This document shows positions 2,793 through 22,938 of a stretch of DNA of 38,451 bases, in pieces (the first letter of the stretch is position 1; each line of letters opens with the position of its first letter). Made by a program: the position numbers and the translations under genes. Source of the DNA: Candidatus Zipacnadia bacterium (GTDB taxonomy: Bacteria; Armatimonadota; Zipacnadia; Zipacnadales; UBA5352); the NCBI GenBank assembly GCA_029820295.1, contig JALGVA010000032.1, positions 1 through 38,451 on the forward strand, read 5' to 3'. Under the pieces are notes generated by a model. That model was not told the DNA's origin and searched no databases. It worked only from the letters and a program-made list of their open reading frames with translations.

Positions 2793-3390
2793 CAGGACTC
2801 ACCTCCACAGGCAAGTTCACCCCTGCCTCCGAAAGTAACCGGCTAACCACCTCTGACGACTCGTCCCTCGACACGACAATCCCGGTGAACAGCCCAACTA
2901 CGACCCGATCGGGAACAAGCACCTCGGCGCACTTGATCTTCTTCCTCCGGTCCTTTTCCACGGGATCAGCGTGATCCCACGAACGCGCGTACACGAGTTC
3001 CGCGTCGATGCCTGCAAGACCTCCGGGCGACGCATAGAAGCGAGTGAGTCTGGCGGCTGCGTTGCCGTCCGCAATCACAACACCGTTTGCGTGAAGGGAG
3101 TCAGGCGACACCGTGATGACGCAGAGTTCACAGTGTCGTGACTGCAAGCAGTACATCATCGGGTTCCGCGCACAGAAGTAAAGGTTCACATAGGAATGAA
3201 GGGAACGAGATGTGCCATTGGGCAGACTGACGGTACGCAGTGCTCTGCGCTGCTGCACGTTGGCATTGGCGACTGACTCATGCTGTAGCTGTCGGACCGC
3301 GCTGTGCGACAGGATGCCCCGCTGCAATATCGAACTTATGTTCGATATAGGCGTAATGTAGCACAGGTCGCGCACTTCGTCAAGTCTCAC
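2776..3390 (-). CDS. darT: DarT-type DNA thymidine ADP-ribosyltransferase toxin
   Basis: About 204-209 residues, the usual DarT length. Family knowledge: DarT attaches ADP-ribose from NAD to thymidine in single-stranded DNA, blocking replication, and many DarTG pairs protect against phage. Counted from an upstream TTG (3405), visible motifs are YITPISNISSILQRGILSH (NAD-pocket start), NLYFCARNPMMY, and KCAEVLVP with the likely catalytic glutamate E161. I chose GTG at 3390 because AAGGAG lies exactly 6 nt before it; TTG at 3405 has no comparable ribosome site and would add five residues. An in-frame TAG at 3442-3444, the stop of the upstream gene, rules out longer versions. The gene overlaps darG and follows a secreted-peptidase gene by about 50 nt. 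All key motifs look intact, so the toxin is probably active. Confidence 0.9.
   Translation of the reverse strand: MRLDEVRDLCYITPISNISSILQRGILSHSAVRQLQHESVANANVQQRRALRTVSLPNGTSRSLHSYVNLYFCARNPMMYCLQSRHCELCVITVSPDSLHANGVVIADGNAAARLTRFYASPGGLAGIDAELVYARSWDHADPVEKDRRKKIKCAEVLVPDRVVVGLFTGIVVSRDESSEVVSRLLSEAGVNLPVEVSPDVFFH
3327..3348. repeat. Perfect 9-bp inverted repeat in the 5' coding part of darT
   Basis: ATATCGAAC, a 4-nt spacer (ttat), then GTTCGATAT. It is AT-rich in a GC-rich genome and lies about 15 codons into darT, where it encodes the ISNISSI stretch. It could be an operator or an mRNA hairpin limiting toxin translation, or a coincidence of the repeated Ile-Ser codons. Confidence 0.6.
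3355..3383 (-). promoter_or_regulatory. Possible intragenic promoter inside darT
   Basis: On the minus strand TTGACG (3383-3378), a 17-nt spacer and TACATT (3360-3355). Predicted transcription would start near 3348, at the edge of the inverted repeat 3327-3348. It would give a message lacking the darT start but carrying all of darG. The -10 matches consensus at only 4 of 6 positions, so this is tentative. Confidence 0.3.
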
Positions 3391-3441
3391 GTCCAGCTCC
3401 TTCAATCGTGCTACGAGGGCGCACTCCCACTTGGCACTCCC

Positions 3442-5133: not shown

Positions 5134-6116
5134 CGGATCGGCTCCTCCCGCTCAGAGTCGCTCTCGTCCGCGTCGGGACAGGCGATGCGCCGGGCCACCT
5201 GCTCGGCCAGTTCCAGCCGGTCCTCGTCCACCAGCACGCCCGCGTAGTAGATGCGGTTCTCCTCCCGCGAGTGCCACACCCAGCCCTTGACCGCCTCCGG
5301 ATAGGGCTTGCCCACCACGTGCATCGCGAAGGACTGGATGTGGCGCAGGGGGTTGGCGAAGTAGCCGCTCACCTCCACGGCAGGATGCCCGCGGAAGGTG
5401 GCATCCTCGTAGGAGAGCTTGACGCCCTTGTGGTGCGGGGGGATCTCGCGCTGGGCCCAGCGGCGCAGCGAGCCGTCCTTGAGGACAACATTCGCCATGC
5501 CCCAGCGGGCGGCAATGATCTGCTCACCCTTGTCCTCGAACTGCAGCTCGATCAGCCCGGCCATGAGCTTCTGGCCGCTGAGGGTGAAGCGCTCGGGTGC
5601 CTGCATCTGCAGCCCGTAGGTGGACCAGGTGATCCACTCGTCCTCGGGATGATCCTGCAGGCTGCCGATGATCTCGCCCGCCAGGGCCAGCCCGTCCTCG
5701 TCGGGGAGCGCGAGCACCTGCACCACCATCACGCGCTCGCACTCCTCGCAGTACCAGCCGGCGCCGAAGCCGTCGGTGGCGCCGTGCCAGGCGAAGCAGT
5801 TGAGGTCGCGCTTACGCCGCATCCGGCGCTTGCTGACCACGACGCAGTCGCGGTCCACCTCGACCTCGGGCTCGCCCTTCTTGCGCTTGCGCCCCAGCTC
5901 GGTCAGGTACTTGTCCACCACGCCGTCGATGTCAACGAAGCCCTTGGCCTTCTGCCACTTGATCTCCACGCGTGGCATGTTGTCGATGTCGTCGAGGCGC
6001 ATGTAGCCCTGGTCGGCGTCGCCGCTGATGGCGGCGATGTCCCACTCGGGCGGCACGGTGACCACGACCCCCTGCCAGCCGCGGACCTCCCAGTTGCTCG
6101 TGTCGGTGTTGGCCAT
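5130..6116 (-). CDS. Hypothetical protein with internal duplication
   Basis: 328 residues, no signal peptide or membrane segment. I do not recognise the family. Two halves look alike: residues about 8-150 (GWQGVVVTVPPEW ... GWYCEECERVMVVQV ... LALAGEIIGSL) and about 168-315 (YGLQMQAPERF ... GWVWHSREENRIYYAGV ... LELAEQVARRI), each a beta-rich block ending in a helix. The first half has a CxxC in WYCEEC. The C-terminus is acidic and probably disordered. The ribosome site before ATG 6116 is weak. The stop overlaps the start of the secreted HEWGH protein, and rodA lies 33 nt upstream, so it sits in an operon concerned with the cell surface; its function is unknown. Confidence 0.7.
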   Translation of the reverse strand: MANTDTSNWEVRGWQGVVVTVPPEWDIAAISGDADQGYMRLDDIDNMPRVEIKWQKAKGFVDIDGVVDKYLTELGRKRKKGEPEVEVDRDCVVVSKRRMRRKRDLNCFAWHGATDGFGAGWYCEECERVMVVQVLALPDEDGLALAGEIIGSLQDHPEDEWITWSTYGLQMQAPERFTLSGQKLMAGLIELQFEDKGEQIIAARWGMANVVLKDGSLRRWAQREIPPHHKGVKLSYEDATFRGHPAVEVSGYFANPLRHIQSFAMHVVGKPYPEAVKGWVWHSREENRIYYAGVLVDEDRLELAEQVARRIACPDADESDSEREEPIR

Positions 6117-6149
6117 GTGCTCAGCTCGTTCCCGTCGTCGCGTGCGTCG

Positions 6150-7241
6150 CTAGAAGACGATCTGCTCGCGCCGGATGTGAATGCTCTGCAGGATGCCGAC
6201 CGCGATCATGTTGGTGATCAGGCTGCTGCCACCGTAGCTGAGGAAGGGCAGGGCCATGCCCTTGACCGGCGCCAGGCCGATGGTCATCGCGATATTGGCG
6301 TAGACCTGGATGAGCAGCATGGCCGCGATGCCGGCGGCCACGACGCGCTCGAAGGTGTTGACCGCCTGGCCGGCGATGGTCAGGGCGCGGTAGAGCAGCA
6401 GGCCGAAGAGGACGACGATGGCCGCGGCGCCGACGAAGCCCAGCTCCTCGGCGATCACCGTGAAGACGAAGTCGGTCTCCTGGTCGGGGATGAACTGCCC
6501 CTGGCTCTGGCGACCGTGGAACAGCCCCTGCCCCCACAGGTGGCCCGAGCCCACGGCGATCAGCGACTGGTTCTGATGGTAGGCGGCGCCGTGCGGGTCG
6601 CGCTCGGGGTGCAGGAAGGCGGTCAGGCGCGCCTGCTGGTGCGGGCGAATGAGGCCGAAGCCCCAGGCGCCGGCGAAGAGCAGCACCGCCGCCAGTACGA
6701 AGGCGCCCAGGTGCGCGGGGCTGGAGCCGAAGATGAACATCATGACCAGCCAGATGAAGAACAGCACGATGGGCGTGCCCAGGTCGGGCTGGAGCAGGAT
6801 CAGCCCGGCCGGCACGCCTACGTAAATGAGCGTTCGCACCAGGAAGAGGAAGTCGGTACGGTCTCCCTCCTCGCGGGCCACGAAGGCGCCCAGCATGAGG
6901 ATCACGGCCAGCTTCGCCAGCTCCGAGGGCTGCAGGTTGACCGGACCCAGAGGGATCCAGCGCGCGGTGCCGCGGATCTGGCCCATCATCAGCACCAGCA
7001 CCAGCAGGCCCATCACGACCAGGAACAACGGCCAGGCCATGCCGCGCAGCCGGTTCGGGTCAAGCAGCGCCGTGCCGACCATCATCACCAGGCCGATGAC
7101 CACGTAGGCGGACTGCATGGCCACCTTCGCGGTGGGCGAGGGGGCGGTGCGCGTGCAACTGTAGATGGCGATCAGGCCGATCGCGCACAGCAGCAGCACC
7201 ACGGTCAGCAACTGGAAGTCGGCGTTGCGCAGCGACCTCAT
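6150..7241 (-). CDS. rodA: RodA/FtsW-family peptidoglycan glycosyltransferase
   Basis: 363 residues with about ten membrane helices. SEDS-family proteins polymerise lipid II into glycan strands together with a class B penicillin-binding protein. The RodA-like signature is GSGHLWGQGLFHGRQSQ followed by FIPDQETDFVFTVIAEELGF, and near the C-terminus LAPVKGMALPFLSYGGSS. These favour RodA (elongation) over FtsW (division). I start at ATG 7241 (MRSLRNADFQLL), preceded by TGAGGA; a frame reaching to 7361 has no family-like residues before this methionine and crosses the promoter's -10. It leads a minus-strand operon with the two genes downstream. No mreC, mreD or class B PBP gene is in the window. 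Confidence 0.9.
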   Translation of the reverse strand: MRSLRNADFQLLTVVLLLCAIGLIAIYSCTRTAPSPTAKVAMQSAYVVIGLVMMVGTALLDPNRLRGMAWPLFLVVMGLLVLVLMMGQIRGTARWIPLGPVNLQPSELAKLAVILMLGAFVAREEGDRTDFLFLVRTLIYVGVPAGLILLQPDLGTPIVLFFIWLVMMFIFGSSPAHLGAFVLAAVLLFAGAWGFGLIRPHQQARLTAFLHPERDPHGAAYHQNQSLIAVGSGHLWGQGLFHGRQSQGQFIPDQETDFVFTVIAEELGFVGAAAIVVLFGLLLYRALTIAGQAVNTFERVVAAGIAAMLLIQVYANIAMTIGLAPVKGMALPFLSYGGSSLITNMIAVGILQSIHIRREQIVF

Positions 7242-7439: not shown

Positions 7440-8222
7440 TCAGTCGGGGTCGGGCCAGTCGCCACCATCGGCGATGCGGCCCCAGTCCTTGCACATGCCC
7501 ACCGGGTCGCCGCTCTGGGGCTGATGGTCGAATGGGTAGCTGGTGCGTGCCGCCCAGTCGGCGTGGTAGTCACAGTACAGGAAGTTCTTGCCGTCGAAGT
7601 GCCACATCGGGAACTCGTCCGGGTCCTCGTAGCCGCTGCCGTCGCCGGGCATGTCCTCATCGTGGTACTGGTAGACGTTCTGCCCGAGCGCGTCGCCCCA
7701 GGCTCCGGGCTCGTTATCGCCCTTCTCGAACAGCAGCACGGTCTTCTGCGGCGCCGGGATGTCATCGCGGAAGCCGCCGATGGCGATGATGCCCCCGCCC
7801 GACACGGTCATAGGCCGCTGCGTGTACTGGGCGATGGCGTAGGAGCGCGCGCTGCGCGCGTCGGTGTTGGGGTTGTCGGGGCAGATCAGCAGATCCTTGG
7901 TGCGCAGCGCGTACATGATGGCCGTGTCCCAGGTCCCTATCGACGAGTCGGCCACGTTCTTGAGGGGGTCGGGCGGCGGAGTCCACGGGGCGATACCCGG
8001 ATGGGTGATCGACCAGGGCGGGAGGAAGCCGGCGTTGTCCTGCACGTAGGTCTCAATCGCGACCCCGATCTGCTGCAGATTGGACAGGCAGCGGGTCTTG
8101 CGCGCGCTGGCGCGGGCGCGACTGAACACCGGGAAGAGGATTGCGGCCAGAACAGCGATGATGCCGATCACGGTCAGCAGTTCAATGAGAGTGAATCCTG
8201 TGCGGCTCTGGCATCGCCTCAT
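7440..8222 (-). CDS. Prepilin-type protein, DUF1559-like (pseudopilin 1)
   Basis: 260 residues. Type IV prepilin leader MRRCQSRTG followed by [24 protein letters not shown], cleaved by prepilin peptidase after G9 with E5 of the mature protein in place; the following ARASARKTRCLSNLQQIG is the usual start of DUF1559 proteins. The C-terminal half carries WHFDGKNFLYCDYH, a variant of the H-X9-DG motif in which the final glycine is tyrosine. I chose ATG 8222 because it gives a short leader; an in-frame ATG at 8249 would add nine residues and has no ribosome site. It is the last of three co-directional paralogues. Such proteins form or decorate type II secretion-like pseudopili; the partner is unknown. 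Confidence 0.87.
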   Translation of the reverse strand: MRRCQSRTGFTLIELLTVIGIIAVLAAILFPVFSRARASARKTRCLSNLQQIGVAIETYVQDNAGFLPPWSITHPGIAPWTPPPDPLKNVADSSIGTWDTAIMYALRTKDLLICPDNPNTDARSARSYAIAQYTQRPMTVSGGGIIAIGGFRDDIPAPQKTVLLFEKGDNEPGAWGDALGQNVYQYHDEDMPGDGSGYEDPDEFPMWHFDGKNFLYCDYHADWAARTSYPFDHQPQSGDPVGMCKDWGRIADGGDWPDPD

Positions 8223-8271
8223 GGGCGCTGTCACACTCCTGTACACCATCTCTGAGCGCGGTGTCGCGGCG

Positions 8272-8943
8272 TCAGCCCGCGGGGGGCCAGTCGCCGGACG
8301 GGGGCCGGGCAGGCACCTCACATGCGCCGGGCTCGGCCCCAGCCCGATAGCAGGCGGCGAACGGCCCGGCACCCTTAGTATACCACTTCACATGCCCGTC
8401 GATAAACGTGAAGTTCTTTCCCTCATGGTGAAACGGCACCTCTGAGTACCCCGGCTGGCCCTTCGCGGTGTGCGATTGATACACGTTCTCACCGGTGGCA
8501 TCGTCCCAGATTCCGAAGGGGTACATGCCCTTCTCGAACAGCGCGACCGTCGCCACCGGGTTGGGGAAGCGCCCGAGCTGGATGCCGCTGACGTAGCGCG
8601 GCATCGCGTACGACCGGAAGCCCCGCCCGAGCGGGTTCTCCGGACACTCCAGCACCTGCTTGTTGCGGTAGTACGGGAACACCTGCTCGTCCCACGTGTA
8701 CGGGTACGCCGACGGCGCCCCGCCGGTCGGGCTGCCCCCCACCAGGCTCCACAGCGGCATGATCTCGTCGGCGTCGTCGGCGTACATCTGCAGCGCAATG
8801 CCGAGCTGACGCATGTTGGATTGGCAGGCCGTCCCTCTCGCCTTCGACCGCGCCCGTGCGAACACCGGGAACAGGATCGAGGCCAGGACCGAGATGATGG
8901 CGATGACCACGAGCAACTCGATGAGCGTGAAGCCGCGTCTCAT
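8272..8943 (-). CDS. Prepilin-type protein, DUF1559 / H-X9-DG (pseudopilin 2)
   Basis: 223 residues. The leader is only MRRG, followed by [27 protein letters not shown] 8943 has GGAGG 7 nt upstream. The mature region continues [27 protein letters not shown], then a variable, partly aromatic domain with CPENPLG, and the processing-associated H-X9-DG motif within [17 protein letters not shown]. The protein should be inserted in the inner membrane by its N-terminal helix and assembled into a pseudopilus after cleavage and methylation. Paralogous to its neighbours on both sides. No pilin ATPase, GspF or prepilin peptidase gene lies in the window, so assembly depends on genes elsewhere. Confidence 0.9.
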
Positions 8944-8978
8944 GGTACTTCCTCCGCGGCCCCGCCGGGCGTCGCGCG

Positions 8979-9012
8979 CGGGCCGCCTGCCCCCGGGGGA
9001 CCAGGCGGCCCG
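8979..9012 (-). terminator. 11-bp hairpin between pseudopilin genes 3 and 2
   Basis: CGGGCCGCCTG pairs perfectly with CAGGCGGCCCG around a 12-nt loop that itself contains CCCCCGGGGG. It sits in the 106-nt gap after the first-transcribed pseudopilin gene. It may partly stop transcription or stabilise the upstream message, giving unequal levels of the three pilins. No T-tract. Confidence 0.45.
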
Positions 9013-9049
9013 GACGGGGATTCGACGTGCAGCCACGCTTGACCTGCCT

Positions 9050-9784
9050 CTACTCCACCGGCCAGTCACCATCGCTGGCGCCGGGGTACTCGCAGTGCCC
9101 CGGGCCGTGCTGCTCCCAGGGCGGCTGCGAGCCCGGGTGCGCGGTCGCACAGGTGCTGGCCGGGTTCACATAGGCGAAGGGGCCGCTGCCGGCGGCGGCC
9201 CACTTGACGTGGCCGTCGAGGTAGACGAAGTTCTTACCGCCGTTGTGCCACAGGGTCTTGTCGAGGCCGTAGCCGGTGCAGCCGGCGGTCTGGAAGAAGT
9301 TCTCGGCCGCGGCGTCGCCCCACACGCCGGGACCCTTCCAGCCCTTGTCGAACAACAGCACGGTCGAGGTAGGGACGGGCGGCAGGTCGGGGCACTGACC
9401 GGAGACGTAGCGCGGCATGGCGTACGAGCGCGGGCGGTCGCCGCTGGGTGTGCGCTTGGGGTTGTCCGGGCAGCACAGGATCTGCTGGTTCTTGGTGTAG
9501 GGCCCGAGCAAGGTGTCCCAGGTGTAGGCGCCGGTGGACAGGTCGTCGTCCGCGTCGCTGCCGCCGTAGCCCCACGGGGGCAGCGTGCTGTCGTAGTCCT
9601 GCGCGTACATGATCATCGCGGTACCGAGCTGCTTGAGGTTGGACGAGCACACCGCCTGCCGCGCCTTGGCCCGCGCGCGTGCAAACACCGGGAACAGGAT
9701 CGCGGCGAGAATGGCGATGATCGCGATCACGACGAGCAGCTCGATGAGGGTGAAGCCACGCGTGCGACCACGTCGATGTGTCAT
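9050..9784 (-). CDS. Prepilin-type protein, DUF1559 / H-X9-DG (pseudopilin 3)
   Basis: 244 residues, first of three paralogues in transcription order. Leader [10 protein letters not shown], then [27 protein letters not shown] 9784 has GAGGAGGT 6 nt upstream, the best ribosome site of the three. After [24 protein letters not shown] comes a variable domain with CCPDNPKR and MPRYVSG, both echoed in pseudopilin 2, and the H-X9-DG motif within [17 protein letters not shown]. Such families are expanded in Planctomycetes, Lentisphaerae and Armatimonadota. The tandem array with divergent middle regions suggests different subunits or binding specificities within one pseudopilus, which is inference. 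Confidence 0.9.
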
Positions 9785-9948
9785 GTTGCGACCTCCTCGG
9801 CGCTCCGCGCGCTGCCGAAGACGCCATGTCCATCGTCCAACCGGCCTGCCATCGCCGGGGCTGCGGGTGTGTACTGTAAACGCCGCGCGTGCGCGATTGT
9901 TCCACACCGAGGAGATTCTGCTGCGCGGGCGGGTCGGGGCCAATCGAA

Positions 9949-9998: not shown

Positions 9999-11984
9999 TC
10001 AGTAGGGCATCTGCGAGACCGCCTGGCCGATGAGCGCGAACGCCACCGAGCCCATGCCGATCAGGCCCATGCCGCAGGCATAGCCGGCGGAGAGCACCGT
10101 GGCGTACTGCTTCCAGCGGCGGGCGCCGAAGCGCGGGATCATGTAGAACTGGCTGATCAGCGCCCCGATCATCTCAGGGAAGACGAAGTGGGGCATGTGC
10201 CCAATGCCGCGCACCACTCCGTAGACCAGGAGGGTGGGCATGCGCGCCGCCGCGAGGATGCTGTAGGTGATCACGCCGAAGCCGAAGCCGCCGACCACGA
10301 ACTGCCACTTGAAGGCGCGGTGGAAGAGGCTCTTGCCGGTGAGGGTGGCGGTGAGCCACAGACCGGAGTTGAGCGCGTTGAGGTGCCACATCTTCTGCGC
10401 GTACGGGTAGTTGGCCGACGGGATGGGCGCCAGCTTCCAGATGAACTCCCAGTAGATCAGGCTGCAGACGACGACGATGGGCAGGATGAGCAGCTCGGCC
10501 TTGACCAGCGAGATGACCTTGTTGCCGGTCAGCTCGAGCACGCGGAACTGCTGGGCGCGCTGGCCGTGGTCGAACTCGGGGATGGGCGCGAACCAGATGT
10601 CGATGCCCTTGTAGCCGCTGAGGATGATGACGCCCTGCTTGACCATGGGAATGGAGACCCACTGGCCGGTGAGGCCCTTCATGCGCGCGTCCACGTAGGA
10701 ATTGAGCGGTGTGAAGATGAAGCCGAAGAAGATCACCCACAGGATGGGGAAGTCGGGCACCAGATGCCAGCACAGGAAGACGTAGCCCAGAGTCGAGAAC
10801 GCGAACATGCCGATGGCGAGCCACAGGTTGATGTCGCCGCGGCCGGGCACGCCCGCGAGCGTCCCGGGCTCGTGCTCGCGGCCCTCCTCATCGGCCCTGC
10901 GATTGCGGTAGAAGTGAGCGAGGATACCGGCGATACCGATGAACGCGACCGCGAACGCGGTGCCGATGCCGATGCTGAAGTAGAAGTCCACCGAGTTGGC
11001 GAACGAACTCTGGATGGTGTCCATCCCCGGCGTCCAGGCCTGCAGTACGCCCGCGCGGTAGAGCGCCGGGTTCAGAATGAAGGTGGCCACCGCGGTCACG
11101 AAGCTGCCCACCACCGCCCAGAACGGCACGACGAAGCCGGCGATGATGGCGCCCAGGTCGGTGGTGAAGCCGGTGGGCACGGCGGGCAGCACGTTCTCGG
11201 TGTTGCGCGTGAGGTCAACGAAGGGAATCGGCAACAGTTGCAGGGGCTTGGTCATGATCACGCCGGTGATGGTGGGCACGCCGACGTAGAAGGCGCCGAA
11301 CACCAGGCCGATCATCGCCCCGATGGCGAACACGCGCCAGCGCCAGGTCTCCGTCTTGGTGGTGGTCTCGGCCAGCGCGGTCGAGCCCTGCGCGGTGATG
11401 GCCGCGTAGGGGAAGGGCAGGCGCTCGTAGTCGGAGGTGATGCGGAAGAGCGTGTAGCCCAGCCCGAACCAGTTCAGGCGGCTGAGGATCACGCCCACCA
11501 AGAGGATGGCCATCGGGTAGTACCAGTCGGGGTGGAAGAAGGTGCGCCGCAGCAGCGCCTCGGAGTCCGGTGGCGGGACGACCCACTCGGGGATCTGGTA
11601 GGCGATGCCCAGGCCGCGCGCCGCCGGCGAGCGCACGAAGTACTGGTCCCAGATCTTGCCGGCGAAGACGCCGCCGGCGAGCTGCAGGCCGCCGGAGGTG
11701 GACGCCAGCGCCGCGGCGATGTAGAAGAGAATGTACACTTCCTGGCGCTTGAGCGTGATGAACGACCGGCGCGCCACCTCGGTGAAGAGGATGATGGTGG
11801 TCCACTCAGCCGCCGGCCCGAGGTTGCGCCCGGCCACCAGCCCCAGGTAGATGGCGCCGGGCATCATCACGAAGCCGATGAAGATGGCCCCGATGATGGT
11901 CTTGACGTCAAAACCATCCTCGTATTGCTCGGGCTGGTCCATCAGCCCTCGGTACAGCTCAAGTTCGGGGTCCAGTCGAGACAC
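9999..11984 (-). CDS. Multi-pass membrane transporter, OPT-like
   Basis: 661 residues with some 14 or more hydrophobic segments spread over the whole length and no signal peptide. Size and topology resemble prokaryotic oligopeptide transporter (OPT) proteins or the related large membrane families of unknown function seen in Armatimonadota and Lentisphaerae; I cannot name the family with confidence. Features include [15 protein letters not shown] after about residue 190, a charged cytoplasmic loop ([14 protein letters not shown]) near 365, and [15 protein letters not shown] near 435. The start is GTG 11984 with GGAGGT 5 nt upstream. It follows the peptidase-permease fusion by 72 nt on the same strand and is probably co-transcribed, which hints that the operon handles peptides or peptide-like compounds. 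Confidence 0.6.
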
Positions 11985-12056
11985 TTGACACCTCCGGGCG
12001 CCACCATGCGCGTCTGCGTGTGGTCGAAACCGGGCTCAGGCGGCCGGCGCGCCGCG

Positions 12057-15000
12057 TCACTCCGCGGTGTCGGGCAGCTCCTCGCCCGCCAGGATGGCGC
12101 GGCCGCGCGCGCCGAACTCGCCCTTGAGCGGCGTGGGCAGCGTGCGCCACAGCAGATACTGCTTGCGCAGCAGGTTGATGAAGTTGCGGGTCACGCGGAT
12201 CCACGAGGCTTCGTCGCCGCTCTCGCGCTCGATGACCGCGCGGATCTGGTAGATCTCGGCATCCTCGGTGGGCACGGTCTCGATGGTCATGTGCTCGGAG
12301 ACGCCCAGGTCGTAGGGCGCGAGCCAGACCATCACCGCGAGAGCATAGCCCTCCCCCAACTCGTACTCGCGCCTGTCGAGCCCCAGGTCACCGGTGGAGA
12401 AGTTGCCCAGCGAGTAGTCCGCGTGCGCCGACAGGTAGTCCAGCAGGAAGACGTTCACGCCCAGGGCCTGGTCGCCGGTCACGGTGAAGGGCAGGTTCAT
12501 GCGCATGACGTCATCGACCGGCTCGGGCAGCGTCCAGCGGCGCTCGATGCCGGGCATGGCGATGTCGGAGGCCACGCGCGCGGGATAGAGCACCGAGATG
12601 AGCACTGTGAACATGATCATCAGCGTGCTTGCCACCGCGGCCAGCGACGAGTAGTTGAGGTACAGCCCGCCCAAGGCCCCGGTCATCAGCAGGATCTTGG
12701 CGGCCATCTGGCCGACCAGGTAGCCCACGACGGCGCCGAGCACTGCGTACACCGAGGCCTCGGCGATGAACAGCGCTGCGATGTGCGTGGGTGCCAGGCC
12801 CAGCGAGCTGTAGATGTGGATCTCGTTGGTGCGCTCATAGACCGAGCCGAGCATGGTGTTGAGCACGATCAGGGCGGCGATGAGCACCGGGATGATGATG
12901 TCGCCGGCGCCCTGCAGGCCGGTGGTGCCGACGGCGCTGCACAGGTAGGTCTCGCCGTCGATGCCCGCGTAGAGGTTCAGTTCCACGCGCGCCATCAGGT
13001 TGTCCAGGTCCTCGCGCACGTCCGCGGCCTCGGGGATGCCGATGGCGACCGAGCGCAGCGTGCCGCCGGCGTTGATGACGAAGTTGTAGGGCACGATGAG
13101 GACCGCGTCGGGCGTGAGGTGGATGTACTCACGCAGCTCGTCCTCGCTCATCTCGTCTTCGCCGGCCTGCATGGACTGGCGCTGCGCCTGCTGCTCCTGC
13201 ATGAGCAGGTAGTCCACGGGCGTGATCTGCTCGCCGTCAAGGTCCTCGATGCGCTTGAAGCGGTCGGAGTCGATGATGCCCAGCACGCGCAGGCGGGTGC
13301 CGAAGACCGACACGTAGACGTTGCCCACGTCCTCGGCCTGGATAGCCAGCTTGTCGGCCATTTCCTGGGGCACGATGCATGCGAGCGTGTCGGTGTCGGT
13401 GAACCAGCGGCCGCCGGGCTTGAGCGCGCTCTGCGGGTCGGTGATGAGCTGCTCGTCGGGGGTGAGCCCGACCATGGCGGTGGCGGCGTAGGAGGCGCCG
13501 GCGCGGGAGACGTCCACGAAGGACTGCTCGCCGATGCGCGCGGAGAAGTACCACGCGCGCGGGGCCACCGGGTAACGGTCGCCGAACTCATTGGCCATCA
13601 CGCGCGCGGTGGGCTCGCCGATGGGCGTCCACGTCTTGTCGCGGATCATGATGCCGTTGTACTCGGCGGTGTGCGGCAGGCGGATGCGGTTGCTGCGCAT
13701 GGTCTGCTTGATCGAGGTGGTGGACAGCACGGTGAAGGTGAGCAGCACCAGGGTCACACAGGTCAGCAGTGTCCGGATCTTGCGCCGGCGCATGTTGGAG
13801 ATGCCCAGGCTGAAGGCGGCCGCCGAGGCCGACAGGCGGCCCACGTCGGCCTCGCGCACCCCGGTCTGCTCCCAGCGCACCTCGCGCATCTGCTCCTCGA
13901 ACTTCTGCACCACGATGCCCACGACCACCACGGTGAGCGCGAGGATGATGAAGGCGAGCAGGATGATCATGGGCGTGAAGGTGATGGCGAAGGCCGGATG
14001 CACCAGAGCGATGAGGATGAAGATGCCGATGAAGAACGCCACGGTGCCGATGATCTGGCCCTTGATCTCGCGCGCGCCGATGAACAGGCGCTCGGCGAAG
14101 ACCGCGAACGGCATCAGCAGTGCCAGGTAGAACAGCACGCCCTTGACCACGTCATCGGCGGTCTTACGCACGTCCGGGTAGGCGCGCGATTCGTAGCTCC
14201 AGGCAGTACGCGCGGCGGTGAAGAACTCGTCGTAGTTGCGCTCGCGCAGATACTGCTGCGCCAGGTTCAAGTACTCGAGGGCTTTCGCGTGCGAGTTGGT
14301 GACACGCTGGTTGGTGATGCCGTGCCTGGACATGTCAATCATGCGCGTCTCGTCCAGCAGCCACATGTCCGTGGCGACGCGGTAGGGCGTGGCGTAGAGC
14401 GAGGGGTAGCGATCCACCAGATAGCCCTCGCCCAGCTCTTCGCGGTCGGTGGGGTTGACCAGCAGGAAGCGCAGGCCCAGCAGACTGGCGCCCATGGTGA
14501 TCTTGACTTTGGTGCCCGATGGGGCGAAGACCACGGCCACCGGCTCGTACGACGATGTGAACTGCGCGGGCGGCAGGGGCAGACAGTAGCCGTATTCGTA
14601 GGGCGCCGCATCGGTCTGCGCGTCGTAGACCTGGATCTCGCTCAGGAGTTGGAAGAAGCGCTGGTCGACCATGTCGAAGATGGCGACCGGCTTGCAGTCG
14701 AACATGACCACGGTGACCGGCTTGATATCCTGGTCCATCGGCACCTTGTTGGGGTACTGCTCGGCGCCGGTCACGCCCATGTCCGGAGCCATCACGACGC
14801 AGCCGTCCCGGGGGTCGAGCAGGTAGGCCTCAACGGTGATGGTGCCGCCGCGCGCGCGCGAGTTGGGCAGCCCCAGCAGGGTGAAGCGCCCGTCGTCACC
14901 GACGATGTCGAAGATCTCGCTGCGCACGCCCATCGAGGTCTTGGTGCCGGTGCGCGCGACCGCGACCGAGCCCACCACGGGATCGTCGGGGAACAGGCTC

Positions 15001-17075
15001 TCCTCGGGGTCGAACTGCACCGCACGGCCGCGGATCTCCACGAAGTCGTCGGACAGCTCGAGGTCGTAGAGGTCGCGCGGGTCATCGAGCGATACCAGGT
15101 CCATGACCAGGCAGGCCAGGAAGCGGGTCTGCTCGACCAGGTTGTCGAGCTGCACGTGCTCGATATGGTCCATGGGCGTGTCCACCCATGGCCGCGAGTC
15201 GTGGACCGTAGCGAAGCCCAGGCCGGGGATGCCGGCGAGGGTGGCGACCTCGTGCGACATGGCGAGCTTGCCGGCCATGTAGGTGCGCCAGCTCTTGCCC
15301 TGGATGGCGTTGATGCCATCGACCAGGCGCACGGGCACACCCAGGGCGGCGGAGATCAGGTCGGAGTACTCACGCGCCTTCTTGCCGATGTCGGAGAACT
15401 TCCACTGGATGCTCTCGCGGAAGTCGTAGAAGTAGCCCTTGTAGAAGATGCCGAAGGTGTTGTTGTGGCTCGACAGGTCGAGGGTGAACCACAGGTAGAT
15501 CTGCTTGTCGGAGAAGTCAACGGCATCGGCGAGGGCCCAGGCGGCGCGCTCCACCTCGGCCAGCGCGGCCTGCTTCTCCTGCAGGTCGGCGTCGCGCGGT
15601 ACGCGGCGGGCCGCGCGCACGGCCTCGCGCGCGTTGTCCACCGCCTGCTCGATGCCCGGGACAGCGGCGCCGAACTCGGCGATCAGCTCCATACGCTCGT
15701 CCAGCTCGTCCTCGGTGAGCTGGCGCTCAACGAGCACGCCGCGGTTGGGAGCATCGCGCCCGGCGCGCTCAGCGGCGCGCACGGTCTTCATCAGGCGGCG
15801 ACCGTTCTTGGCCGCCAGGTTGATGGCGCGGGCGATGCGGCCGAGCGCGCGCATGCGCTCGGTGACCAGCTCCTCCTCGGTCTTGGGCTCCTCCTGGGAG
15901 TACTCGTCGGGCTCCTCCCACACGCGCGCGATGGCGTCCTCAAGTTCGGAGCGTGCGTGGTTGACCAGGTCGAACATGTGCTTGACGCGCCGCTCGCCGC
16001 GGGCGCCGCGGATGAACTGGTGGATGTAGGACTTGGTGCCGGTGAGGGCCTGGAAGTGGCCGGAGGTGGCGAGGAAGATGACGGTGCGCTTGGGCGGCTG
16101 CTCCTTGAAGGCCTTGGCGAGCTGCATCATGGCGGCGATGGAGCAGGCGCTCTCGGCTCCGGGCGCCTGGTTGGGCGTCAGCGAGATGGAGTCGTAGTAA
16201 GCCTGGATGACCACCTGCTGATTGCTCAGCCGCAGATCGGCGCCCTGGGTGTCGCCCGTGTCATCGCCCTCGGCGTGGGTCGGGGCAGCGCCCTCGATGC
16301 GCGCGACGACGTTCTCGCCCTCGACGCGCTGCCAGGCCATGTCACAGTGGATGGTGACCGGCACCTCGTCGCGCGCGAGCAGCAGGCCCATCAGGGTGTC
16401 GGCGGCCTCGCGCGGGATCCAATAGCGCGGGATGTCCACCGGGATGGACAGGAACTTGGCCTCGGCCTCGCCGCGCAGCGTCTCCTCGGGCTCGATGAAC
16501 AGCACCGCCTGGGTGCCCAGCAGCGGGCCGTTGAACCACTCGGCCTGGCAGTTGAAGTCCACCATGGTGATGGAGTTAGTGACTTCCTGGCCGTTGAAGG
16601 CGCGCAGGTTGCCGGGGCCGGCGTAGATGAGGTTGCCGCGGATACCGTCATCGGGCGTGGTGGGCGTGCGCACCAGGTTGGGCCACATGGGCAGCATGGC
16701 GAAGGAGGTGTCGGTGCCGTCGACGCTGATGGAGGCGTAGCGGCCCTGCTCATCGGGGCGGGCCACGGGGACGACCACGGGGAAGGTCTCGATGTGCACG
16801 TCCTCCAGGCCGATCTGGCGGAAGCCGTCGGCGACCATCTGCGCGGCCTCATGACAGCCCGGGTAGCCGGTGACGCGCGAGCCCAGCGCCTCGAGGTCGG
16901 CGATGAGGTCGCGCATCTCCTGCTCGTCGATGGCGGAGGCCGCCATCTCGTAGTCGGTGTCCGACTCGAGGACGATCTCCTCCTCGTGCCCGCCCTGGGC
17001 GAGCGCGGGCAGGCCGGACATCGACAGCCCCAGGATGCCTGCGACAGCAACTGTGGCCCACAGTGGACGGAGCAA
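12057..17075 (-). CDS. M28-peptidase-like ectodomain fused to FtsX/MacB-type ABC permease
   Basis: 1672 residues. Signal peptide 1-27 (cleavage near ALA-QG). Residues about 50-350 and 520-665 resemble an M28 aminopeptidase fold with a PA-like insert (about 100-250) and a charged helical insert (about 365-515). Metal and catalytic positions seem lost: the expected HxD reads YYD at 293-295, the GAND-type loop reads GAES at 306-309, the EE pair reads HF at 340-341, and the last histidine is replaced in VDTPMDH at 631-637. A beta-sandwich follows (about 675-760), then three membrane helices (975-1056), then a complete FtsX unit: helix 1101-1121, MacB-like extracytoplasmic domain to about 1390, helices near 1392-1410, 1432-1458 and 1475-1498, and a 170-residue cytoplasmic tail. 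TTG 17075 is the first possible start, two codons after an in-frame TGA. It should pair with the ATPase and small permease upstream. Confidence 0.8.
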   Translation of the reverse strand: MLRPLWATVAVAGILGLSMSGLPALAQGGHEEEIVLESDTDYEMAASAIDEQEMRDLIADLEALGSRVTGYPGCHEAAQMVADGFRQIGLEDVHIETFPVVVPVARPDEQGRYASISVDGTDTSFAMLPMWPNLVRTPTTPDDGIRGNLIYAGPGNLRAFNGQEVTNSITMVDFNCQAEWFNGPLLGTQAVLFIEPEETLRGEAEAKFLSIPVDIPRYWIPREAADTLMGLLLARDEVPVTIHCDMAWQRVEGENVVARIEGAAPTHAEGDDTGDTQGADLRLSNQQVVIQAYYDSISLTPNQAPGAESACSIAAMMQLAKAFKEQPPKRTVIFLATSGHFQALTGTKSYIHQFIRGARGERRVKHMFDLVNHARSELEDAIARVWEEPDEYSQEEPKTEEELVTERMRALGRIARAINLAAKNGRRLMKTVRAAERAGRDAPNRGVLVERQLTEDELDERMELIAEFGAAVPGIEQAVDNAREAVRAARRVPRDADLQEKQAALAEVERAAWALADAVDFSDKQIYLWFTLDLSSHNNTFGIFYKGYFYDFRESIQWKFSDIGKKAREYSDLISAALGVPVRLVDGINAIQGKSWRTYMAGKLAMSHEVATLAGIPGLGFATVHDSRPWVDTPMDHIEHVQLDNLVEQTRFLACLVMDLVSLDDPRDLYDLELSDDFVEIRGRAVQFDPEESLFPDDPVVGSVAVARTGTKTSMGVRSEIFDIVGDDGRFTLLGLPNSRARGGTITVEAYLLDPRDGCVVMAPDMGVTGAEQYPNKVPMDQDIKPVTVVMFDCKPVAIFDMVDQRFFQLLSEIQVYDAQTDAAPYEYGYCLPLPPAQFTSSYEPVAVVFAPSGTKVKITMGASLLGLRFLLVNPTDREELGEGYLVDRYPSLYATPYRVATDMWLLDETRMIDMSRHGITNQRVTNSHAKALEYLNLAQQYLRERNYDEFFTAARTAWSYESRAYPDVRKTADDVVKGVLFYLALLMPFAVFAERLFIGAREIKGQIIGTVAFFIGIFILIALVHPAFAITFTPMIILLAFIILALTVVVVGIVVQKFEEQMREVRWEQTGVREADVGRLSASAAAFSLGISNMRRRKIRTLLTCVTLVLLTFTVLSTTSIKQTMRSNRIRLPHTAEYNGIMIRDKTWTPIGEPTARVMANEFGDRYPVAPRAWYFSARIGEQSFVDVSRAGASYAATAMVGLTPDEQLITDPQSALKPGGRWFTDTDTLACIVPQEMADKLAIQAEDVGNVYVSVFGTRLRVLGIIDSDRFKRIEDLDGEQITPVDYLLMQEQQAQRQSMQAGEDEMSEDELREYIHLTPDAVLIVPYNFVINAGGTLRSVAIGIPEAADVREDLDNLMARVELNLYAGIDGETYLCSAVGTTGLQGAGDIIIPVLIAALIVLNTMLGSVYERTNEIHIYSSLGLAPTHIAALFIAEASVYAVLGAVVGYLVGQMAAKILLMTGALGGLYLNYSSLAAVASTLMIMFTVLISVLYPARVASDIAMPGIERRWTLPEPVDDVMRMNLPFTVTGDQALGVNVFLLDYLSAHADYSLGNFSTGDLGLDRREYELGEGYALAVMVWLAPYDLGVSEHMTIETVPTEDAEIYQIRAVIERESGDEASWIRVTRNFINLLRKQYLLWRTLPTPLKGEFGARGRAILAGEELPDTAE

Positions 17076-17133
17076 GTCCCTTCACCGCCTCCGGAAGGTT
17101 ACGTACATCGGTCCGGCCGCGCCCCGGATGAGC

Positions 17134-17177
17134 GCCACACAGAGAAGCATGGCGCGCGACTGTGTGGCCGCGCGCCA
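17134..17177 (-). promoter_or_regulatory. Two overlapping, mutually exclusive 9-bp hairpins in the leader of the fusion gene
   Basis: Perfect stem A: GCCACACAG (17134-17142) with CTGTGTGGC (17160-17168). Perfect stem B: TGGCGCGCG (17150-17158) with CGCGCGCCA (17169-17177). The arms interleave as A-B-A'-B' with linkers of 7, 1 and 0 nt, too short for a full pseudoknot, so only one stem can form at a time. It lies 59-102 nt upstream of the TTG start, in the 196-nt gap after the ATPase gene. The arrangement is that of an attenuator or switch; the signal is unknown. Confidence 0.5.
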
Positions 17178-17271
17178 GCCAGACTGCTCACGCCGGCCCG
17201 CCGCCCCGGTCCTGCCCTGCAGGATGGCCGACCACGCCGAGGGGCGGATCGCCGCCCTTACGACGTCCCCG

Positions 17272-18180
17272 CTACTCGTCAAGCTCGGGGTCTGCTTCGC
17301 TCCCGAGGCTGCCCACGTCGAGGTCGATGTCGGCGCGGTTCTCGATGCGCTCGACCTGACCGTCGCGAATGTGGACCACGCGGTCTGAGACGTCGATCAT
17401 CTTCAGGTCGTGGGTCGCCGAGATGATGGTGACGCCGCTCTCCTCGTTGAGTTCCTTGAGCAGGTCGATGATCTCCTTGCCGGTCTGCAGGTCCAGGTTC
17501 CCGGTGGGCTCATCGGCGAGGATGATCGCGGGCGCGTTGGCCAGCGCGCGCGCAACCGCGACGCGCTGCTGCTGCCCGCCGGAGAGTTCGTAGGGCTTGT
17601 GGTGCAGGCGGTCGCCCAGGCCCACCAGCTCGAGCAGCATGGCGCCGCGCTCCATCATCTCGTCGCTGCTCATGCCCGCGAAGATCATGGGCAGGGTCAC
17701 GTTCTCGAGCGCGGTCATGACCGGGATGAGGTTGAAGGTCTGGAAGATGTAGCCGATCTTGCGGCAGCGCAGCCAGGCCAGCTCGAAGGCGTCGAGCTGA
17801 GCCATGTCCACCTCTTCGATAAAGCAGGTGCCCTTGGTGGGCTTGTCGAGGCCGCCGACCATGTTGAACAGCGTGCTCTTGCCCGAGCCCGACGGGCCCA
17901 TGATGGACAGGTACTCGCCGCGGCGGATGTTGATCTCCACGCCGCGCAGCGCGGGCACCTCGACCTCGCCCATCACGTAGATCTTCTCCAGCTCCTTGGT
18001 GCGCACGATGAACTCGTGGGTGGTGACCGAGTCATCGTGGGCGACGTCGCGCATCTTCTCCCGGCGGTGCGCCAGCTCTTCCATGACGCCGCGCAGGTCG
18101 GCACCGCACTCCGGGCAGACGGTAACGATCCCGGGCGTGTCGACCACGTGGTGACACTTGGGACACTCGATTCTGGCCAT
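17272..18180 (-). CDS. ABC transporter ATPase (MacB/LolD type) with N-terminal zinc ribbon
   Basis: 302 residues. Residues 6-25 are a CxxC...CxxC zinc ribbon (C6, C9, C22, C25), unusual for this family, followed by a charged linker. The ATPase domain (about 57-280) has Walker A GPSGSGKST 95-103, Q-loop Q147, signature LSGGQ 199-203, Walker B IILADE ending at E224, and H-loop H257, so it should be active. It belongs to the lipoprotein-release / MacB class that drives FtsX-type permeases in mechanotransmission. An acidic tail of about 20 residues follows. ATG 18180 has AAGGAG 8 nt upstream. It lies between the small FtsX permease and the giant permease fusion, and most simply serves both. The ribbon could dock to a partner; that is inference. 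Confidence 0.92.
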   Translation of the reverse strand: MARIECPKCHHVVDTPGIVTVCPECGADLRGVMEELAHRREKMRDVAHDDSVTTHEFIVRTKELEKIYVMGEVEVPALRGVEINIRRGEYLSIMGPSGSGKSTLFNMVGGLDKPTKGTCFIEEVDMAQLDAFELAWLRCRKIGYIFQTFNLIPVMTALENVTLPMIFAGMSSDEMMERGAMLLELVGLGDRLHHKPYELSGGQQQRVAVARALANAPAIILADEPTGNLDLQTGKEIIDLLKELNEESGVTIISATHDLKMIDVSDRVVHIRDGQVERIENRADIDLDVGSLGSEADPELDE

Positions 18181-18235: not shown

Positions 18236-18961
18236 CTAGATCTCGGTGGACAACGCGGCCGCGGGGGGCATGCGCGCCGCGCGCACTGCGGGCGGCACGG
18301 CCGCGAACAGCGACAGCACGGTGCCGATGCCCAGGGCGATGAGGATGTACTCCACCATCTGGCCCCAGTCCATCATCGCGGCGACGCCGCGTTCCTTAGT
18401 GATGTAGACCACCAGCATGATGAGGTGGCCCAGGATGGCGCCAACGATCGAGCCCAGCATGCCCAGCACCGCGGACTCGATCAGGAACAGGCGCACGATG
18501 AACTCATCCAACGCCCCCAGACACTTCATGGTGCCGATCTCACGGAAGCGTTCGGTGACCGACATGAGCATCGAGTTGGTGATGCCCACGGCCGACACCA
18601 GCAGCGACATGACCACCAGCCAGGCCTGGCGGGCGGCGCGGGCCTTGGCCTCGGCCTCGGCCTCCTCCGCGCCGGGCGCCAGGGAAGCCTCCTCGCCGCC
18701 CACGTAGGTCGCGCTGGTGGCCTCGAAGCGGGCGATGCCCTCCTGGGCGACCTTGGCCGTCCATACCGAACACAAGAAGGCGATGCCCAGCACCACGCCC
18801 GCGCCCGTGATCATCGCCCGGCCCAGGCGCATGGTAACGTTGCGGTAGCTGATGCGCGCGGCCTGGCCCCATGGCAGTGTGATCTGACGCTGCACCTCCG
18901 CCCCCGGTTCGAGGCGGTCATCCTCTGCATACAGCTTGCGGGCAAGCTCCTTATTGATCAT
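18236..18961 (-). CDS. FtsX-like ABC transporter permease, short form
   Basis: 241 residues. Four membrane helices: about 50-68, 112-132, 158-186 and 204-224. The helix-2 edge carries the FtsX hallmark ITNSMLMSVTERFREIGTMKCLGA, and the end VRAARMPPAAALS is typical. The extracytoplasmic segment between helices 1 and 2 is only about 45 residues, alanine- and glutamate-rich, against about 200 or more in MacB or LolC/E, so this subunit has almost no outside domain. Start ATG 18961 (MINKELARKLY) is a choice without a good ribosome site; an ATG at 19009 directly abuts AGGAGG and would add 16 residues. First gene of the unit that continues with the ATPase and the giant fusion. Confidence 0.88.
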   Translation of the reverse strand: MINKELARKLYAEDDRLEPGAEVQRQITLPWGQAARISYRNVTMRLGRAMITGAGVVLGIAFLCSVWTAKVAQEGIARFEATSATYVGGEEASLAPGAEEAEAEAKARAARQAWLVVMSLLVSAVGITNSMLMSVTERFREIGTMKCLGALDEFIVRLFLIESAVLGMLGSIVGAILGHLIMLVVYITKERGVAAMMDWGQMVEYILIALGIGTVLSLFAAVPPAVRAARMPPAAALSTEI

Positions 18962-19343
18962 CGCTGAAGCTGCGCCATCCTTTCCTGCCCTCGGCCGAGC
19001 GGCGAGCATCCTCCTGGACAGTGGCCGAGCCGACGAAATGACACGCAGGCCGCAGACGCATCCGGTCCGCGCCCGGTCACGGCTTCCGCTGTTTCCTCCC
19101 CGCGCGAAGGTTCACCTTCCCCGCGCAGAACCCTTTTTTCCGCACCCCGCCCGCGCCCCGTGCCGTCCGCTGCGCGCGCTCCCGGCCGGCAGGTCCGCGT
19201 GTGTGCATTGACATCCGCCGGCCGCGCGTGGTTCCCCTCCCGGTGCCGCGCTGTTGACCATCCCGGGGGCGCGCGGTAGAATCAGGTTGAGGTGCCGCGG
19301 GTATGTGGGCGTCGCCGTCTGGCGGCGGCCCTGGAGGTGGGGT
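18962..19343. other. Divergent intergenic region between the ABC permease and lepB
   Basis: 382 nt with no convincing gene. It holds the lepB promoter (19254-19282). No clear minus-strand promoter for the ABC unit was found. A weak imperfect hairpin (19102-19126) followed 7 nt later by T6 (19134-19139) is noted but not called a terminator. A lone TTGACA at 19209-19214 has no matching -10. Confidence 0.6.
19254..19282 (+). promoter_or_regulatory. Sigma-70-type promoter of lepB
   Basis: TTGACC, 17-nt spacer, TAGAAT. Transcription would start near 19289, so translation must begin later; this supports the ATG at 19344 and excludes an open frame that begins at the -35 element. Confidence 0.7.
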
Positions 19344-21234: not shown

Positions 21235-22938
21235 TCACAGATCGGTCTCCTGGATCACGAGGCTGATGGTGACGCGCACCTTCATCGGCTCGGCGGGCTC
21301 CATCTGTCCCATGCCCATGCCCATGCCGAACTCACCGGGGCCCATCATCATCCCCGGCTCCATGCCGGGGGCCATGCCCGGCGGCATGCCGCCCGGCCCG
21401 TAGACGCCCGGCTCCGGGGGCATCATCTCCGGCCCCATCATCATCCCGGGCTCCATGGGCATGCCCATCATGCCCATCTCCGCGCCCATGCCCATCTCGC
21501 CCATCTGCTGGGCGCGTTCAATCTCGAGGGTGTGGACGATGGTGTCCACGATGCGGATGGGCCGGTTGAGTTCGTAGGCCCAGTAGGTGATGCGCTCGCC
21601 GGTGTACGAGGTGTCATGCTCGACGCCGCCGGCGCCGCCCATCATGCCCCCGTCCATCGCCGCGCCGGTGTCGCCGAAGCCGCCGGGCATCATACCCATC
21701 ATGCCCGCATCGGGGGGCGGACCGCCCATCATGCCGGGCTCGCCGGCAATGCCACCGAAGACCTCGCCGCCCAGCGCGCCGCCGCCACCGGTGGGGATGG
21801 TGATCTTGTCATCGTCCACGCTGAAGGTGCTGCGGATACGCACCGTCGGCTGGCCCATGACCCACTCGAAGCCCTCGACGGTGTGCGTGGCGGGGACGGT
21901 GCGCGTCTCGATACTGGTCGGCGGCCGGGTCTCGGCCGTGGCGCCCATGCCGCCCTCCATGCCGCCCTCCATGCCGGGCTCCATGCCCATGCCGGGCATG
22001 GCGCCGGGCATCGCCCCCATGTCCATGCCCGGGGCGGCCATCATGTCCATGCCCGGGGCACCCATCATGCCCATCTCGCCGCCCATGCCGCCGGTGCTCA
22101 CCGTGCCCTTGAGGGGGTCGGGCCAGATGGTGATGCGGCCGCGCCAGGAGTCGCCCACCGAGACCATCTGCCGGCCCAGCGGTACCGAGATCTCGGCCAG
22201 CTCGAAGGGGGTGTCATCGCTGTGCTTGAGACGCATCTCGCCGTCGCGCAGAGCGCGATAGGTATGCACCTTGCCCGCGCGCGCGAGCGCCTCGACCTCG
22301 CTGGTGCCCGCCTGCGCGCCCGAGGAGCCGACCACGACGTGCAGCACCGCGTGCCCGGCGGCGACCGAGGGGCTCATCACCAGGTTCTTCCAGTTGGAGA
22401 TCAGCGCGCCGTCGTAGTTCCTGGCGATGGTGTAGACATCCTCGGGCTCCTCCTCGTCCGTGGCCGGCCGGATCGACCAGCGGGCCTCCGCGCGGTACAG
22501 CGCCTGCTGGTTGCGCTCGTACCACAGCATCAGGGGCACCTGGCGGGGGGCTTCCGAGGCGGACAGGGAGTTCTTGAGGGTGACAGTGATCGAGGCCTCG
22601 CCGACCTTGCGGCCGCTGGGAGACATCGCCACCGCGGTGATGGTGTACTGGCCGTCGGCGTAGAGGTCCTTGCCGTCCTCGCCGCGCGCGCGGGTGTCCC
22701 AGACGTAGGTGAACGGTGAGATCACCGCGCCGACGAAGTCGCCCCGGCCACCGGATTCGATCTTGTAGGAGATCCACCCCTCGTCGGGGCTGGGCTTGGT
22801 GGCCTGAAGCCTGACCATGTCGCGGACGGTGTCGCCATCCTGGGGAGTGATGAAGCTCACTCCCTGCGCGCTCGCGACCAGGCAGGCCCCGAGGGTGGTA
22901 ATCGCGATCAGGGCCATCACAACGAAGCGCCGTCGCAT
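21235..22938 (-). CDS. Secreted protein with three methionine/glycine-rich segments
   Basis: 567 residues. The N-terminus is a signal sequence; it contains LGAC (C19), which could be a lipobox, and ASA-QG at 22-26, a standard Sec cleavage site. Residues 26-125 look like an Ig-like beta domain with an RxD-type surface (ITPQDGDTVRD ... ITAVAMSPSGRKVG). Three low-complexity segments rich in Met, Gly, Pro and Asp/Glu interrupt beta-rich sequence at about 285-331 (16 Met), 403-433 (9 Met) and 479-552 (24 Met), with repeated PGM, GMM and EPGM units. Met-rich segments in copper-handling proteins bind Cu(I); a metal role here is inference, and surface stickiness or oxidant scavenging are alternatives. 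I do not recognise the family. ATG 22938 follows GGGGAAGGG. Second gene of the operon begun by the HIT gene. Confidence 0.82.
   Translation of the reverse strand: MRRRFVVMALIAITTLGACLVASAQGVSFITPQDGDTVRDMVRLQATKPSPDEGWISYKIESGGRGDFVGAVISPFTYVWDTRARGEDGKDLYADGQYTITAVAMSPSGRKVGEASITVTLKNSLSASEAPRQVPLMLWYERNQQALYRAEARWSIRPATDEEEPEDVYTIARNYDGALISNWKNLVMSPSVAAGHAVLHVVVGSSGAQAGTSEVEALARAGKVHTYRALRDGEMRLKHSDDTPFELAEISVPLGRQMVSVGDSWRGRITIWPDPLKGTVSTGGMGGEMGMMGAPGMDMMAAPGMDMGAMPGAMPGMGMEPGMEGGMEGGMGATAETRPPTSIETRTVPATHTVEGFEWVMGQPTVRIRSTFSVDDDKITIPTGGGGALGGEVFGGIAGEPGMMGGPPPDAGMMGMMPGGFGDTGAAMDGGMMGGAGGVEHDTSYTGERITYWAYELNRPIRIVDTIVHTLEIERAQQMGEMGMGAEMGMMGMPMEPGMMMGPEMMPPEPGVYGPGGMPPGMAPGMEPGMMMGPGEFGMGMGMGQMEPAEPMKVRVTISLVIQETDL

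Follow-up and report, generated by a model that had tools for sequence, protein, structure and literature searches.

We examined a 38,451-nucleotide stretch of DNA from a Candidatus Zipacnadia bacterium (contig JALGVA010000032.1, hereafter the window) and identified on its minus strand a gene, M28-FtsX, whose 1672-aa product combines an M28 aminopeptidase-fold domain with a type VII ABC permease in a single polypeptide. Among the open-access papers searched, none described such a fusion. From the N-terminus onwards, the protein comprises a predicted signal peptide, an M28-like domain with a PA-like insertion, a beta domain, three transmembrane helices, the permease and a C-terminal domain, distributed along the window as follows.

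12057..17075, minus strand: M28-FtsX gene (1672 aa), its TTG start codon preceded by GGAGG
16995..17075, minus strand: hydrophobic, signal-peptide-like N-terminus, residues 1-27, ending in PALAQ (from hydropathy; cleavage predicted from sequence)
15072..16943, minus strand: M28 aminopeptidase-fold domain, residues 45-668, with the PA-like part at roughly 124-224
15522..15992, minus strand: helical insertion separating the EE motif from the LD motif, residues 362-518 (its length in homologues is 2-169 aa)
13893..14150, minus strand: three extra transmembrane helices, residues about 976-1061 (from hydropathy and model)
12552..13841, minus strand: type VII ABC permease (MacB/LolC/HrtB-like) with a MacB-like periplasmic domain, residues about 1079-1508
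12141..12521, minus strand: C-terminal domain (residues about 1519-1645); its matches to helix-grip (Bet v 1/START-like) or KA1-like folds are weak (Z 7.5-8.6, near chance)

Pfam recognized the two halves in part, with Peptidase_M28 (PF04389) covering residues 285-352 only (E 2.6e-9) and FtsX (PF02687) located at residues 1395-1502 (E 1.3e-11). A plus-strand open reading frame spanning the same stretch (10188..17426) was rejected as a gene and probably just mirrors the codon bias of GC-rich DNA.

The AlphaFold model of residues 691-1672 (pLDDT 78.8) was matched by MacB, LolC/E, HrtB and YtrF over residues about 1079-1508, with Z scores of 12-15. Hydropathy placed the permease helices at about 1100-1118, 1393-1411, 1432-1463 and 1478-1502, giving the four transmembrane segments, with a large periplasmic domain between the first and the second, that characterize a type VII ABC permease. 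With an exported M28 domain, the three extra helices would bring the chain back to the cytoplasmic side, where permeases of this type must start. The four-helix permease and the MacB-like periplasmic domain are shared with MacB, LolCDE, HrtBA and FtsEX, as is, in the clade of the window, an adjacent LolD-type ATPase; none of these systems, however, is known to have a permease extended by an M28-like domain, by three further helices and by a further domain at the C-terminus. The weak helix-grip or KA1-like matches of this last domain hint at a cytoplasmic and possibly lipid-binding module.

Gene neighbourhood

Three genes encoding putative partners surround M28-FtsX on the same strand.

18236..19009, minus strand: FtsX/LolCE-type permease, 257 aa, a possible second permease half
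17272..18180, minus strand: ABC ATPase of LolD/MacB type with an N-terminal zinc-ribbon-like segment, upstream partner
9999..11984, minus strand: multi-transmembrane protein, 661 aa, conserved downstream partner without Pfam or NCBIfam family

Of the 20 loci examined in the clade of the window, nearly all preserve the order small FtsX permease, LolD-type ATPase, M28-FtsX and 661-aa-type gene. More broadly, a 661-aa-type gene lay less than 500 bases downstream on the same strand at 72 of 110 loci, which include all 15 testable loci of Latescibacterota and Gemmatimonadota. No ABC ATPase was found adjoining the M28-FtsX gene in most lineages outside the window's clade, and a paralogous M28-FtsX subfamily has a DUF6785/DUF6784 membrane protein just upstream instead. 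The 661-aa protein carried the working label "OPT-like", drawn from its general appearance with no family match behind it; a relationship with DUF6785 is not claimed, the hhalign match being weak (probability 6 percent, E 0.0065).

Downstream of the cassette, three consecutive DUF1559-type pseudopilin genes occupy positions 7440-9943 (minus strand), one of them checked against Pfam (PF07596, PF07963). Elsewhere in the window, we observed a DarT-DarG-like toxin-antitoxin pair (1647-3405, minus strand), in which a DarT ssDNA ADP-ribosyltransferase gene (PF14487, E 5.5e-51) overlaps that of a macro-domain protein (PF01661, E 1.6e-16) extended at its C-terminus. A 567-aa protein rich in Met/Gly/Pro repeats (GMMG, MAPGM) and without Pfam match (21235-22938, minus strand) is a possible low-complexity envelope protein, and a DUF4062 and TPR protein with a P-loop-like GIGGMGKSAL motif (28246-31134, minus strand) resembles STAND-type sensor or defence proteins. 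Finally, a 1415-aa fusion similar to 2-hydroxyacyl-CoA dehydratase activases, containing BcrAD_BadFG twice and DUF2229, is encoded at 32349-36596 (plus strand).

Fold and structural relatives of the M28-like domain

The AlphaFold model of residues 40-690 was obtained with high confidence (pLDDT 91.6, pTM 0.92). Its structural alignment retrieved the aminopeptidases BSAP (6hc6, Z 31.9 over 374 residues at 4.5 A), 2ek8 (Z 30.3) and that of Aeromonas (1amp, Z 28.6 over 265 residues at 2.5 A), as well as the transferrin receptor TfR1 (Z 25.5). Consistently, a sequence profile of 56 homologues matched solved M28 enzymes with a PA domain (2ek8, E 4e-20; BSAP/YwaD, E 1.7e-17) and also the transferrin receptor (1.2e-8) and nicalin (4e-8). 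Both sequence and fold, over the whole catalytic domain, place the protein in the M28 fold superfamily, non-peptidase homologues included. The original prediction, made from the sequence of the window alone, was therefore right to assign it to M28, in agreement with Pfam. It had also likened the domain to the transferrin receptor ectodomain: this receptor is a real relative, but a more distant one than the YwaD/BSAP-type aminopeptidases, and the nearest structures are active bacterial enzymes.

With YwaD/BSAP and the Aneurinibacillus aminopeptidase (6hc6, 2ek8), M28-FtsX shares the fold with its PA-like domain, the motif order, the HxD Asp, the Asp179-type ligand and the HTPxD Asp. Unlike M28-FtsX, these enzymes hold a full zinc site and the Glu pair, and have neither the long helical insertion nor a membrane part.

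Composition of the former active site

To assign the sites, we took as reference three M28 enzymes with canonical sites that the same genome encodes (L001, L002 and L003) and aligned them to family members with a short insertion, the positions being matched to the Aeromonas numbering (H97, D117, E151, E152, D179 and H256). The following elements were recognized.

16191..16199, minus strand: Y293-Y294-D295, replacing the M28 HxD; D295 invariant (110/110)
16149..16160, minus strand: G306-A307-E308-S309 loop, replacing GA(N/D)D, with a one-residue deletion
16053..16058, minus strand: H340-F341, in the places of the catalytic Glu (H340, in 108/110) and of the zinc-ligand Glu (F341, variable)
15477..15479, minus strand: D533, equivalent of the Asp179 zinc ligand (111/111)
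15192..15251, minus strand: E609, D626 and R628, nearly invariant, family-specific and near the former active site
15168..15182, minus strand: D632-T-P-x-D636, replacing the M28 yHTPxD (His ligand to Asp)

Relative to the three reference enzymes, the HxD His has become Y293, the EE pair H340-F341 and the last His D632, with D295 (HxD Asp), D533 (Asp179-type ligand, in the LD motif) and D636 (HTPxD Asp) being kept. HMMER alignments to solved M28 enzymes agreed on the HxD, loop, EE and HTP motifs. In the bridging-Asp loop, which is one residue short, E308 fell on the Asp with HMMER and MAFFT and one place earlier with hhalign; this column contains E in 99 and D in 8 of 110 homologues, and E308 probably stands in for the bridging Asp. 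A Ser298-His340-Asp triad was also considered as a candidate arrangement, S298 being found in 102 of 110.

These changes extend to the family as a whole. Among the non-redundant homologues, the site-1 HxD His was found in only 3 of 110, neither the catalytic Glu nor the neighbouring ligand Glu in any of 110, and the last His ligand (His256 type) in none of 111, so that each of the 111 sequences holds just one or two canonical residues. The three members with a site-1 His sit at two places in the tree and all are without the Glu pair and the last His. Of the residues expected in an active M28 peptidase, M28-FtsX retains the Asp179-type ligand and has lost the HxD His, the EE pair and the last His. 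As judged from these alignments, the catalytic Glu is lost and, of the five canonical zinc ligands, no fewer than three and probably four have gone with it.

The original prediction located YYD (293-295), GAES (306-309), H340-F341 (within SGHF) and VDTPMDH (631-637) at exactly these positions, but its claim that every zinc and catalytic residue had disappeared holds for the histidines and the Glu pair (H to Y293, EE to H340-F341, His to D632) and not for D533 and D295, kept in 111/111 and 110/110 sequences, nor probably for the bridging Asp, for which E308 may substitute. The same substitutions are, as it had asked to be checked, common to close and distant homologues (111 non-redundant sequences from Armatimonadota, Latescibacterota and Gemmatimonadota). 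Of the residues it had named as possible substitute ligands, H340 is conserved across homologues, and H637 and H640 are not and were rejected in this role.

Conservation and distribution of the replacement residues

Ranked among 424 alignment columns, D295 came 5th, D533 7th, D636 8th, E609 11th, D626 14th, R628 15th and H340 17th, followed by D632 (36th) and E308 (49th). The old Glu152 position, mostly Phe and drifting, ranked 140th, and position 309 ranked 250th. Comparison of the domain with that of a near homologue (L088) gave dN 0.124 and dS 0.497, i.e. a dN/dS of about 0.25. Because H340, D533, E609, D626, R628, D632 and E308 all rank near the top in conservation and the Glu152 position drifts, the replacements cannot be ascribed to drift: on the evidence of these substitution patterns, they are fixed and under strong purifying selection.

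The M28 half was present in 74 of 81 related genomes. The membrane half was matched at least weakly in 151 of 151 genomes from the phylum, with strong matches mostly in frames of about 1500-2100 aa, the weakest matches being probably ordinary FtsX permeases. Named records belong to Candidatus Zipacnadia, WS1, Chthonomonadales, Fimbriimonadales, Latescibacterota and Gemmatimonadota. The spread outside Armatimonadota was established from 80 loci kept from a scan with the pattern [AS][YF]YD..., a choice biased towards members that lack the HxD His and blind to intact-site M28-FtsX fusions in other phyla. A search with the FtsX half, independent of this pattern, detected no intact-site fusion among 20 divergent Armatimonadota members.

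The homologues L010 (from the same-genus genome G001) and L088 (from a Ca. Zipacnadia MAG) share equal length and score, and the genome itself contains one paralogue (L004/L065) with identical substitutions. PF04389 also matched two M20-type peptidases of this genome (L005, L006), which we took as cross-matches. The most divergent pair, L171 and L172, forms one clade on a long branch and has lost H340, E308, E609, D626 and R628 together, keeping D295, D533, D636 and long open frames, though these two sequences align with less certainty. This joint loss suggests that the five residues may work as a set. Both paralogues (1812-6881 in locus L171 and 1774-6294 in locus L172) are fast-evolving and still linked to a 661-aa-type membrane gene.

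Possible functions of the modified pocket

From the residues present, a standard two-zinc aminopeptidase function is very unlikely for this domain. The original prediction had proposed a pseudopeptidase that binds peptides rather than cutting them. Its M28 relationship and its loss of metal ligands and catalytic Glu both stand, but the empty site that it implied is unsupported, since the replacements are highly conserved and D533 and D295 remain. Because these replacements are among the most conserved residues of the domain, and because one ligand and the HxD Asp persist, a pocket rewired for binding or catalysis is no less likely than a passive binder.

The explanation that we favour, and to which we give an even chance, is that of a non-canonical M28 homologue whose pocket has been kept and re-specialised for a ligand, and which serves a type VII ABC machine as its receptor domain. 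In type VII ABC systems, the use of ATP in the cytoplasm moves the periplasmic domain, a process described as mechanotransmission (PMC5985334, PMC7668044). By analogy with LolCDE, MacB and FtsEX, the exported M28-like domain could bind its ligand in an acidic pocket around H340, D533, E308 and D632, with a peptide, an amine-bearing molecule of the cell envelope or the N-terminus of a lipoprotein as candidates. ATP-driven movements of the permease would then open and close this pocket, and the ligand would be passed on, possibly to the neighbouring membrane protein, or a signal sent. Several observations weigh against such a receptor, however. The ABC ATPase is not adjacent in most lineages outside the window's clade, making ATP coupling a prediction for most members; a role in catalysis, or in structure alone, would explain the conserved residues equally well; and one lineage at least can dispense with the pocket, as L171 and L172 have lost H340, E609, D626 and R628.

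A tentative alternative, to which we attach a lower probability, is a rewired enzyme holding one metal ion or none, in which H340 would act as general acid/base at the place of Glu151 and E308, D533 and D632 (perhaps E609) would provide new ligands. H340 falls exactly at the catalytic Glu, and the structural matches included PDB 2anp, titled "Functional Glutamate 151 to Histidine mutant of the aminopeptidase from Aeromonas Proteolytica" (Bzymek 2005, by its title as cited in PMC4320195). Furthermore, D533 and D295 are kept in all sequences, two of the three aligners put E308 on the bridging Asp, and the whole residue set is fixed across three phyla. The Aeromonas mutant and M28-FtsX thus have in common a His at the position of the catalytic base, but the former is man-made and altered at one site, and the latter bears a natural His with most metal ligands gone. 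As a single-site mutant, 2anp should retain its five zinc ligands, of which the M28-FtsX family keeps one or two, and for this reason it illustrates that a His can serve at Glu151 and not that M28-FtsX is active. One-zinc M28 enzymes do exist, and GPAA1, a subunit of the GPI transamidase, is likewise a multi-pass membrane protein with an M28-type domain and an incomplete metal site; its site-1 His is a Pro, it is argued to coordinate a single zinc through the sites that are left, and it has no ABC permease (PMC7522609). Against a rewired enzyme, the Glu152 position is mostly Phe and drifting, and the His ligand positions are occupied by Tyr and Asp, leaving no histidine ligand save possibly H340. 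A broader version, in which an M28-fold enzyme with a new active site (a His general base at the Glu151 place, acidic residues, one metal or none) is built into a type VII ABC permease whose ATP-driven movement would gate catalysis at the cell surface throughout the phylum, we consider unlikely.

Doubtful to a similar degree is a pure scaffold or protein-binding ectodomain comparable to that of the transferrin receptor, where the conserved polar residues would just hold the former active-site loops. TfR1, a clear structural relative and a known inactive M28 homologue, lends weight to this view, as do the long helical insertion beside the pocket, the length of which varies from 2 to 169 aa, and the fusion of the domain to a membrane machine. 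TfR1, nicalin and other inactive M28 relatives also share with M28-FtsX an M28 fold without a working zinc site and a membrane attachment, but TfR is eukaryotic, single-pass, outside any ABC system and structurally less similar than YwaD. Moreover, a scaffold would not be expected to show, in almost every lineage, a new His and new Asp and Arg residues fixed in the former active site beside an old ligand position that drifts. As for neutral decay, in which the peptidase site was lost and the present residues are accidental, the disappearance of most of the five metal ligands and the further degeneration of L171 and L172 would fit, but identical replacements in nearly all 111 non-redundant sequences, most at ranks 5-49 of 424, and a dN/dS of about 0.25 refute it for the family as a whole and make it highly improbable.

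Implications

Inactive M28 relatives are best known from animals, with the transferrin receptor, nicastrin and nicalin. M28-FtsX represents a bacterial counterpart, present in most of the sampled Armatimonadota genomes. A different set of residues has become fixed where the site was lost, and the M28-like domain is built into a membrane machine that is probably driven by ATP. Pfam-based counts of M28 peptidases in such genomes consequently take in likely non-peptidases. M28-FtsX offers a clear test of pocket reuse in a pseudoenzyme, and points to a likely envelope function in the Armatimonadota, a phylum whose cell biology is little known.
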